A stretch of DNA of 23,677 nucleotides from a virus: positions 1 through 23,677 of IMG/VR virus record IMGVR_UViG_3300048918_000005; one strand, given 5' to 3'. Position 1 is the stretch's first letter, and each line of letters begins with the position of its first letter. A model generated the notes under the pieces. It was not told where the DNA came from, made no database searches, and was given only the letters and a program-made list of their open reading frames with translations. Positions 4,452 through 6,271 of the stretch are shown here, in pieces. The translations under genes were made by a program, and so were the position numbers.

Positions 4452-4970
4452 CTACCAATCATTTTCTCGCCAGACCGGCGTATAGTTGCCATCTCTGGTC
4501 TTTGTGTATAGAACCACATCGTTGCGCATCATGGCAAGTAGCTCGGTTCGTGAAGGAAGGTTGTACGTTGCAGATGGTAGCCCATCCTTACGTGGTGCGC
4601 CATATCCTGTATTAACCAAATACTCATGCAAATCCAGAATATCCTTCTCAGACCACAGATACGTTCCCGGTCTCTCTTCACCATCTAGGCTATAGAGTCG
4701 GAAAGGCTGTCTAATCTTTCCTTCTTTTCTGTAAAGAAGGAGACTGTTTCTGTGCCTGCCAAGCATCCTCTGAACGTCAGAACCCTTGTAGGCTCTTTGC
4801 ATGTTACGCCTTGCAACAGACAGTACATACATGACTGTCTTCTTGTCAATGTAGTTCCACGCCAGTAGCGTGTCGGCTCCACGATTTACCTGAAGCCTCT
4901 TATGAGGGATACCATCCAGGAAGAAATAATTTTCTACCAGCCTCTTCTTCGGCCGCTTTTCCTTTCCCAT
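4452..4970 (-). CDS. MerR-like helix-turn-helix DNA-binding protein (172 aa)
   Basis: The central segment (about residues 63-113), YKGSDVQRMLGRHRNSLLLYR followed by GKIRQPFRLYS and YLWSEKDILDLHEYL, has the layout of a MerR-type winged helix: helix-turn-helix, basic wing, then a helix opening with WSEKD. The N-terminus is lysine/arginine-rich. The C-terminal part (YGAPRKDGLPS, then LPSRTELLAMMRNDVVLYTK, ending TPVW) looks like a second small domain. The start is ATG 4970 with GGAG upstream; a reading frame open to 5057 would run through the promoter and hairpins and lacks a ribosome site. As first gene of the replication operon, behind a promoter with a dyad across the -10, it could regulate its own operon. 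The transcription-factor role is inferred. Confidence 0.75.
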   Translation of the reverse strand: MGKEKRPKKRLVENYFFLDGIPHKRLQVNRGADTLLAWNYIDKKTVMYVLSVARRNMQRAYKGSDVQRMLGRHRNSLLLYRKEGKIRQPFRLYSLDGEERPGTYLWSEKDILDLHEYLVNTGYGAPRKDGLPSATYNLPSRTELLAMMRNDVVLYTKTRDGNYTPVWRENDW

Positions 4971-5057: not shown

Positions 5058-5226
5058 ACGTTGCTGAGTGGCTTTTCTCTCTCGCCATCAGCCATTGAGC
5101 TAGCTTGTTCTTGGTCTTATCGAGCATCCATCGGGCTCCGCACTCAATGCAGGCAAGCTCCAAATGAGTCTTATCGGAAAAGACTCTATCGATGAATATT
5201 CTTCCGCCACACTTCTTATGGTTCAA
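5047..5226 (-). CDS. Small zinc-ribbon protein (59 aa)
   Basis: This 59-aa protein has a His-x2-Cys pair at the N-terminus (NHKKCGGRIF) and a Cys-x2-Cys pair (LACIECGARWML) about 20 residues later, the pattern of a short zinc ribbon found in small phage proteins. The start is taken as TTG 5226, within the 3' end of the holin gene: AAGGTG lies about eight bases upstream and this start places the metal pair at residues 3-6. A GTG at 5286 would add 20 residues without a ribosome site. It overlaps the holin by 11 bases. No function can be assigned; zinc ribbons of this type may bind nucleic acid or protein. Confidence 0.7.
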   Translation of the reverse strand: MNHKKCGGRIFIDRVFSDKTHLELACIECGARWMLDKTKNKLAQWLMAREKSHSATFAR

Positions 5227-5464
5227 TTGTTGGCACCTTGTCCTTTGTATCAACGACAAGGGATGCACTTTCGGAGCTGCCAACACCAGCAGAACCTACA
5301 GAAGTAAGCAGGGAAATGAGCGCTGCCAGACCTGCCGTAGAAAGACCCTGTGTCCAGCTCACGTCAAGAAGACCTGTAGCTAGAGCGAGAATTGCCACTC
5401 CGGACTGAGCAAATGTCTTCACTGCACGCTCAAATGCATCCTTCCAAAACTTACTTGTTCTCAA
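5216..5464 (-). CDS. Holin, r1t-like, two membrane segments
   Basis: This 82-aa protein has the typical opening of r1t-type phage holins, FWKDAFERAVKTFAQSG, a short amphipathic helix before two hydrophobic segments: about residues 20-34 (VAILALATGLL) and 41-60 (LSTAGLAALISLLTSVGSAG), separated by DVSW. Holins oligomerise in the cytoplasmic membrane and time lysis. A polar C-terminal tail follows. The start is TTG 5464, the only reasonable one, with GGGAGG eight bases upstream. A local promoter and an upstream complement of the ribosome site suggest special control. No endolysin gene is next to it: the neighbours are a metallophosphoesterase and a zinc-ribbon gene. Confidence 0.85.
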   Translation of the reverse strand: MRTSKFWKDAFERAVKTFAQSGVAILALATGLLDVSWTQGLSTAGLAALISLLTSVGSAGVGSSESASLVVDTKDKVPTIEP

Positions 5465-5471
5465 AGACTAA

Positions 5472-5510
5472 ACCTCCCTTGCCCTTTTTGTTTATTATAG
5501 CATGGGAGGT
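5472..5510 (-). promoter_or_regulatory. Holin promoter within an SD/anti-SD inverted repeat
   Basis: Minus strand: ACCTCCC (5510-5504), TGC-TATAAT (extended consensus -10; TATAAT at 5499-5494), then GGGAGGT (5478-5472), the holin ribosome site. The two arms are perfect 7-bp complements. No clear -35 is present, but an extended perfect -10 can suffice. A transcript starting here, near 5487, lacks the ACCTCCC arm, whereas readthrough from the phosphoesterase gene carries it and could hide the ribosome site. Confidence 0.6.
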
Positions 5511-5515
5511 CTTAT

Positions 5516-6271
5516 CTATCCGCTGAATACCTTTGTACCGATGTTACAACGGTAATTGATGACTGGCACAAGGTCAATGAATACTTCGTCGCCAGATACT
5601 ACGCCATAAGCGAACCCAGCTTGCCAGTCAGGTGACAGGTCATAATCCTGTCCTGTTGGTACGCACATGTGACCGATTTCCCAGCCACGTACTGTGCGGT
5701 CTTCCAGCGGAGCAGTATGGGCATAATAGCCCTGTCGGTGTGAATGGCCTCGAATCAGAGAGACTTCGAACTTCTTGACATCATTACGCACAGACTCAGC
5801 AGAGTATTGAGAAATACTTACTCCGTGATGAGCGTAAATCTTGCCATATCGTTCGGTTGGCCTCTCCAAATAATTATGCCATACGAATCCATTGGCAGCA
5901 ACACCATAGATGCTTTCTGGAGTATACAGTCCATCTTCAAGAGATTGTGGATTGTTCTTGTCCAGCCACTTTACATGTCGATGCCAACCGTGGTTACCAT
6001 CGAAAAAGTGTTTGTCAGCATCTGGAGCCTTTGCATGGATTTCCGCTAGGAAGTCTCGTGTGCCTGTGACACCAGGGTCATTCTGGGAGAATCCTTCTCG
6101 TGAAGTTCCTTCTGCCCACCGGCCCGTTCCGTCTGCGTCATCAATGTCTCCGAGCAGGTCAATAGCTCCTGGCTTCAGATAATCCATCACATCGAACCAC
6201 AAGTCTAGCATACGCCTGTCATGATTCGGGAAATGGACATCGGACACAAACAGCCATGTCATATCGGACAT
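5516..6271 (-). CDS. Metallophosphoesterase (calcineurin-like)
   Basis: This 251-aa protein carries all the blocks of the calcineurin-like metallophosphoesterase fold: Asp11-x-His13 (SDVHFPNHD), Gly41-Asp42-x2-Asp45 (LLGDIDD), Gly92-Asn93-His94 (FDGNHGWHRH), His148-His149 (YAHHG) and Gly175-His176-Ser-His178 (IRGHSHRQG). These bind a dinuclear metal centre that hydrolyses phosphomono- or diesters. The third block is GNHG rather than the usual GNHD/E. The substrate is unknown; nucleic-acid or nucleotide phosphate processing is plausible in a phage. There is no signal peptide, so it should act in the cytoplasm. The ATG at 6271 has AAAGGAAC close upstream. It sits between the HNH gene and the holin gene, 28 bases from the former. 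Confidence 0.9.
   Translation of the reverse strand: MSDMTWLFVSDVHFPNHDRRMLDLWFDVMDYLKPGAIDLLGDIDDADGTGRWAEGTSREGFSQNDPGVTGTRDFLAEIHAKAPDADKHFFDGNHGWHRHVKWLDKNNPQSLEDGLYTPESIYGVAANGFVWHNYLERPTERYGKIYAHHGVSISQYSAESVRNDVKKFEVSLIRGHSHRQGYYAHTAPLEDRTVRGWEIGHMCVPTGQDYDLSPDWQAGFAYGVVSGDEVFIDLVPVINYRCNIGTKVFSG

Follow-up and report, generated by a model that had tools for sequence, protein, structure and literature searches.

A promoter nested in a hairpin over the ribosome site of a Streptomyces phage holin gene: a probable start-site-dependent translational lock of the T4 gene e type

The holin gene in the window, by which we mean the whole 23,677-nucleotide stretch of viral DNA analysed, is preceded by a predicted RNA hairpin that buries the entire Shine–Dalgarno (SD) sequence in its 3' arm and carries an extended -10 promoter element that overlaps its 5' arm. 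On the evidence of sequence comparison and computed folding, we consider it probable that this leader is a start-site-dependent translational lock of the type known from T4 gene e, silencing read-through mRNA. Specifically, polymerase reading through from the tail and phosphoesterase genes would produce a holin mRNA with both arms, in which the 5' arm (AGACCTCCC-A-TGCT) would pair with the 3' arm holding the whole SD, and no holin would be made. Polymerase starting at the nested extended -10 would begin near position 5487, past the 5' arm; this mRNA would present an open ribosome site and be translated, and holin dose would track the activity of the nested promoter rather than that of the upstream operon. 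We infer use of the nested promoter, read-through transcription (from the gene order across the holin) and repression by the pairing in vivo; we also take the promoter to be late, given what holin and terminase do and by analogy with T4. The same device stands ahead of the terminase large subunit gene of related phages and is hence not specific to lysis. The core of the original prediction, that read-through hides the SD and a local start frees it, is supported by computed opening costs, by conservation across 15 leaders, by recurrence at other genes and by the match to T4 gene e.

Architecture and predicted fold of the holin leader

The window derives from a Streptomyces phage of the Stanwilliamsviridae, subfamily Boydwoodruffvirinae. 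Its holin region shares 80–90% DNA identity with 16 Streptomyces phage records, and a 99% identical holin is encoded on one IMG/VR contig. The surrounding genes share the minus strand and run from tail genes through HNH endonuclease, phosphoesterase, holin, a small gene and an HTH-like gene to helicase and primase. The identities first proposed for the two central genes from sequence inspection hold: the holin is of the r1t type by both PF16945 (Phage_r1t_holin, 81.2 bits against a curated cut-off of 26.9) and phrog_443, and its upstream neighbour matches the phosphoesterase family phrog_221 (Table 1). The phosphoesterase stop codon (5518–5516) lies 5 nt ahead of the hairpin 5' arm. A terminator scan limited to loops of 3–8 nt showed none between the two genes, and an Rfam search of the window gave no match.

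The leader reads ACCTCCC-A-TGC-TATAAT-loop-GCA-A-GGGAGGT on the minus strand. Its three named elements, ACCTCCC (5510–5504), TGC-TATAAT (5502–5494) and GGGAGGT (5478–5472), are those of the original prediction, and each lies where it had been placed. The extended -10 is the only TGCTATAAT within the window. In the folded read-through RNA, AGACCTCCC forms 9 pairs with GGGAGGTTT, including one G.U; two of the nine, G5511.T5471 and A5512-T5470, lengthen the base of the stem, and GGGAGGT is wholly paired. Beyond a mismatch, an inner part adds 4 pairs, one of them G.U (T5502-A5480, G5501-C5481, C5500-G5482 and T5499.G5483). The TGC of the extended -10 is paired in the stem and therefore serves both promoter and stem. 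The seven outer arm pairs first proposed are thus retained, whereas the single 25-base loop that came with them is not, as the inner 4 pairs leave a loop of 15 nt. The element (CTCCCNTGNTATAAT) has 1 exact match in the window and 1 per relative genome, always at the holin locus; the idea that it belongs to a dispersed-repeat family was rejected because it is single-copy in each genome.

Table 1 Features of the holin leader, its neighbours and related sites
Feature	Position	Strand	Description
Holin gene	5216..5464	-	TTG start at 5464, 82 aa, r1t type; PF16945 E 5.8e-23, phrog_443
Metallophosphoesterase gene (coding part), upstream of holin	5519..6271	-	Putative source of read-through mRNA; phrog_221 E 4.4e-67; same neighbour in all relatives
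Hairpin 5' arm AGACCTCCC	5504..5512	-	ACCTCCC 5510-5504 complements ribosome site; MFE fold, pair counts
Extended -10 TGC-TATAAT	5494..5502	-	TGCT 5502-5499 is also the inner 5' arm; TATAAT invariant in 15 variants
Apical loop, 15 nt	5484..5498	-	Rest of -10 and predicted transcript start near 5487 (from the -10); fold
Inner 3' arm GGCA	5480..5483	-	Pairs with TGCT across A5503/A5479 mismatch; fold, pair counts
Outer 3' arm GGGAGGTTT	5470..5478	-	Holds Shine–Dalgarno GGGAGGT 5478-5472
Terminase large subunit leader hairpin, 13-18 bp	Jay2Jay 69740-69790 (L122:19740-19790); orthologues L124-L138		Around invariant TGATATACT
gp139 and gp121 nested promoters	Jay2Jay L122:41418-41455; L123:378-434		Downstream of tRNA genes
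Endolysin leader pairing with SD	Jay2Jay L121:22465-22507; L142, L144, L146-L148		Around TATACT; Jay2Jay, LilMartin, Bmoc, EGole, Tomas-type
Four-TM phrog_17055 protein, 114-115 aa, in place of holin	EGole L010:4338-4685; Samisti12 L115:2313-2660; Faust L120:2381-2725		Same promoter ahead

Folding of the RNA from both starts, a check proposed with the original prediction, gave sharply different results. Opening the seven SD bases of the holin is computed to cost 16.6 kcal/mol in RNA started upstream and 1.7 kcal/mol in RNA from the local promoter, started 7 nt past the -10. The predicted start near 5487 would give an mRNA leader of 15–16 nt with a computed open SD. When only the part upstream of the predicted start was shuffled with dinucleotides kept, the opening cost averaged 2.9 (sd 1.6, maximum 11.4), and none of 2000 trials reached 16.6.

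A second promoter-like sequence, TGCTATACT, lies in the window upstream of the HTH-like gene (5037–4991, minus strand), within the inverted repeat GTGCTAT-ACTCGAC-ATAGCAC. A terminator-like hairpin (CCCCTGCG..CGCAGGGG) follows it directly, and the arrangement is kept in nearly all relatives compared. This element may end upstream transcription while giving the gene's own mRNA a 5' stem.

Conservation of the leader and exchange of the gene behind it

We aligned 15 distinct holin leaders from Samistivirus, Karimacvirus, Tomasvirus and Coruscantvirus with MAFFT, inserting an N for the base missing in the 5' arm of Coruscant and Mandalore. TATAAT is unchanged in all 15. A standard pair occupies 98.9% of stem cells, compared with 39–59% when the arms are slid by 1–3 columns, and only two cells in all are unpaired. 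RNAalifold, to which the pairs were not supplied, recovers the same 12 pairs. Eight of these 12 vary; the changes fall on both arms, touch a single side of each pair and nearly always give G.U (C to U, A to G). The expectation that the arms would covary in relatives is therefore borne out as far as pairing is kept, but not as double compensatory changes, of which the 15 holin leaders contain none. Such changes are not to be expected, and a column shuffle has no power here, because the 3' arm is fixed as the ribosome site. Taken alone, the holin covariation data are suggestive, not decisive.

Computed SD-opening costs separate the two RNA forms in all these relatives except Tomas (8–20 for the long RNA and 1–7 for the short). 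The leader of Tomas contains two G.U pairs and is marginal: 8.2 against 1.7 in one calculation frame and 5.0 against 4.8 in a second. Coruscant has a longer stem (AAAACCTCCC-TGCTAT / ATAGCA-A-GGGAGGTTTT). A good -35 is not conserved among the leaders compared. Relatives in Loccivirinae retain the promoter but, by computed cost, not the SD sequestration; one of them, Circinus (L119:2310-2385), has a hairpin (CTAACTACT/AGTAGTTTAG) that encloses the -10 of the holin gene and leaves the SD uncovered. Distant relatives (L104-L107) have no clear version of the leader, with an opening cost of 5.1 in L104. Outside this phage group, the pattern CTCCCNTGNTATAATN{8,35}GGGAGG was found on only four contigs, against one for a scrambled control; looser patterns gave many matches with no control alongside, and we hence make no claim of generality.

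In EGole and Samisti12, the holin leader precedes a different gene. It encodes a phrog_17055 protein of 115 aa, which is predicted to span the membrane four times and gives no alignment with the r1t holin. Records of the NootNoot, Peebs and Daubenski types carry this leader too, and the coding sequence after it opens as in that protein, which is likely an alternative holin. Across these sequences, the holin leader outlasts the gene behind it, and the swapping of holins behind an unchanged leader suggests that selection acts on the control independently of the coding sequence.

Recurrence at terminase and other genes

Among 199 genes of Jay2Jay ranked by SD-opening cost (median 3.5), the terminase large subunit gene comes first (19.4) and the holin gene second (15.7). 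Among genes whose SD is good, the six with the highest cost include five in which the hairpin encloses a -10: those for terminase, holin, gp139 (91455), gp121 (100434) and endolysin (22507). Truncating the RNA at its predicted start brings the cost down to 1.3–4.9 at these five genes, and a good -10 is associated with high cost (Mann-Whitney p 0.003). At the sixth costly site (55129), the SD had been mis-assigned at the promoter-plus-hairpin that precedes the HTH-like gene; start annotation or the choice of SD accounts for the spuriously high costs at 55129 and 30582.

In an annotation-free scan for nested sites, covering five relatives and the window, Jay2Jay, Karimac and Tomas each had sequestered sites at the same four orthologous genes, those for holin, terminase, gp121 and gp139; Coruscant had them at two of these, holin and terminase. 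In Faust, of the sister subfamily, no site showed both features clearly. Ahead of the remaining genes with TGnTATAAT promoters, the scan found open ribosome sites.

The terminase hairpin has 18 pairs, five of them doubly changed between genera, and is 99.3% paired; none of 500 shuffles was as good. RNAalifold re-finds it, with the invariant TGATATACT at its top. In the gp139 leader of Jay2Jay, the hexamer of the -10 (TATCCT) is itself the pairing partner of the SD. Opening the endolysin SD of Jay2Jay is computed to cost 11.9 in the long RNA versus 3.2 in the short one. The endolysin hairpin is absent in Karimac-type phages, which have TAGACT and an open site. These results suggest that, at the holin gene and at least three others, probably only transcripts started at the buried promoters are translatable.

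Competing explanations, known counterparts and significance

The alternative that survives best, although we regard it as unlikely, is translational coupling, in which ribosomes finishing the phosphoesterase gene melt the 5' arm and the nested promoter plays only a minor part. In the window, the phosphoesterase stop lies just 5 nt from the holin arm, which terminating ribosomes could open; in relatives the arm begins about 4–7 nt past that stop, within the presumed reach of a terminating ribosome, and the terminase arm of Jay2Jay begins 0 nt past the upstream stop. Yet the same design occurs at gp139 and gp121 of Jay2Jay, where the nearest coding stops are 412 and 119 nt upstream with tRNA genes between, so that upstream ribosomes are not the shared key. 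In T4 gene e, moreover, the upstream stop is similarly close (a 37-nt nudE-e gap), and the long mRNA is strongly repressed all the same (PMC3014915).

Less probable still is an intrinsic terminator that halts read-through transcription and overlaps the SD only incidentally. T-rich stretches follow the stem in the holin leaders of the window and Coruscant, and T6 follows the terminase stem in Karimac and Tomas, where the T runs may point to an added terminator role and joint action with sequestration is conceivable. No T run is found, however, at the Karimac-type holin hairpin or at the gp121, gp139 and endolysin hairpins. With T runs confined to some of the sites, termination is not the shared function; common to all copies is an SD within the 3' arm, together with a promoter whose predicted start falls between the arms. 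At the holin, moreover, the 15-nt loop and the inconsistent T run among relatives depart from the short loop and direct T run of intrinsic terminators, and the scan, which allows only loops of 3–8 nt, did not report the site.

We give slightly less credence again to a DNA operator, an inverted repeat flanking the -10 and bound by a phage repressor or activator. An inverted repeat does straddle the holin -10, and the promoter ahead of the HTH-like gene overlaps a second one, TGCTA-N9-TAGCA. Holin variants nevertheless go to G.U-compatible letters, breaking DNA symmetry while keeping RNA pairing, and the terminase arms shift in sequence between genera with pairing kept, which a protein operator would not tolerate. 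On account of these two kinds of change we reject an operator as the main reading; the spacing of the TGC-type arms also varies, from 12 to 16 nt. The least credible explanation is chance or composition, given that any CCTCCC near a fixed SD will pair with it: against an accidental fold of a strong SD with a C-rich stretch stand the 2000 shuffles, retention across genera and across coding-gene replacement, terminase recurrence with compensatory changes, and the Jay2Jay gene ranking, which shows no equal frequency at control genes. As terminator, ribosome coupling and DNA operator each fail as a shared function, start-site-dependent translation is the best account of these leaders.

The closest known counterpart is T4 gene e, whose leader mechanism is experimentally proven (McPheeters et al. 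1986, as reviewed in PMC3014915; PMC2988022) and in which lysozyme synthesis from the structured long mRNA is cut about 100-fold (PMC3014915). In both systems, one of them by prediction, the SD of a lysis gene is masked by a hairpin in the long mRNA, and a promoter within the DNA encoding the 5' arm yields, or at the holin would yield, a local mRNA without that arm. By the same calculation, opening the SD of gene e costs 14.1 versus 4.1 kcal/mol, similar to 16.6 versus 1.7 at the holin. By contrast, gene e encodes an endolysin, transcribed in E. coli from a phage late promoter (TATAAATA) with sigma gp55, whereas the leader described here, known from sequence and computation, combines a host-type extended -10 with a holin in a Streptomyces phage and shares no sequence homology. 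Hairpin-regulated late genes also include T4 soc, 49 and I-TevI and Aeh1 mobE (PMC3014915, PMC2988022). As in that set, several unrelated genes per phage group share a hairpin with a nested promoter, here holin, terminase, gp121 and gp139; the genes, lineage and promoter type differ, and our set includes an essential packaging gene. Our system is apparently a convergent case of gene e-type control, not a homologous one. In phage lambda, the sdi hairpin of the holin gene S determines which of two starts is used, that of the holin or that of the antiholin; there too, RNA structure adjusts translation in a holin leader, but no nested promoter is known. The literature searched yielded neither a transcriptome nor a promoter map for these phages, and as far as it shows this is the first such control seen in them.

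A broader scheme can be put forward tentatively, and we hold it somewhat more doubtful than not. Across Boydwoodruffvirinae, dispersed late genes (holin, terminase large subunit, gp121, gp139 and, in some species, endolysin) might lie in same-strand operons read at another time, each locked by its own promoter-in-hairpin, with TGnTATAnT marking one temporal class as opposed to TGnTAGACT of the early region, and with the lock acting as a portable cassette that stays in place on gene exchange. In Jay2Jay, the promoters at 4578, 9539 and 109162, including one before rIIA, are TGnTAGACT rather than TGnTATAnT and lack hairpins, possibly representing a separate temporal class.

The transcription programmes of phages of high-GC Gram-positive bacteria are poorly known. 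If our reading is true, start-site-dependent silencing, a device familiar chiefly from T4-like phages, evolved independently in this group. Late promoters would then be findable from sequence, as an extended -10 within an SD-sequestering hairpin, and the lock would account for how genes such as those for holin and terminase stay silent on read-through mRNA despite lying within long operons.
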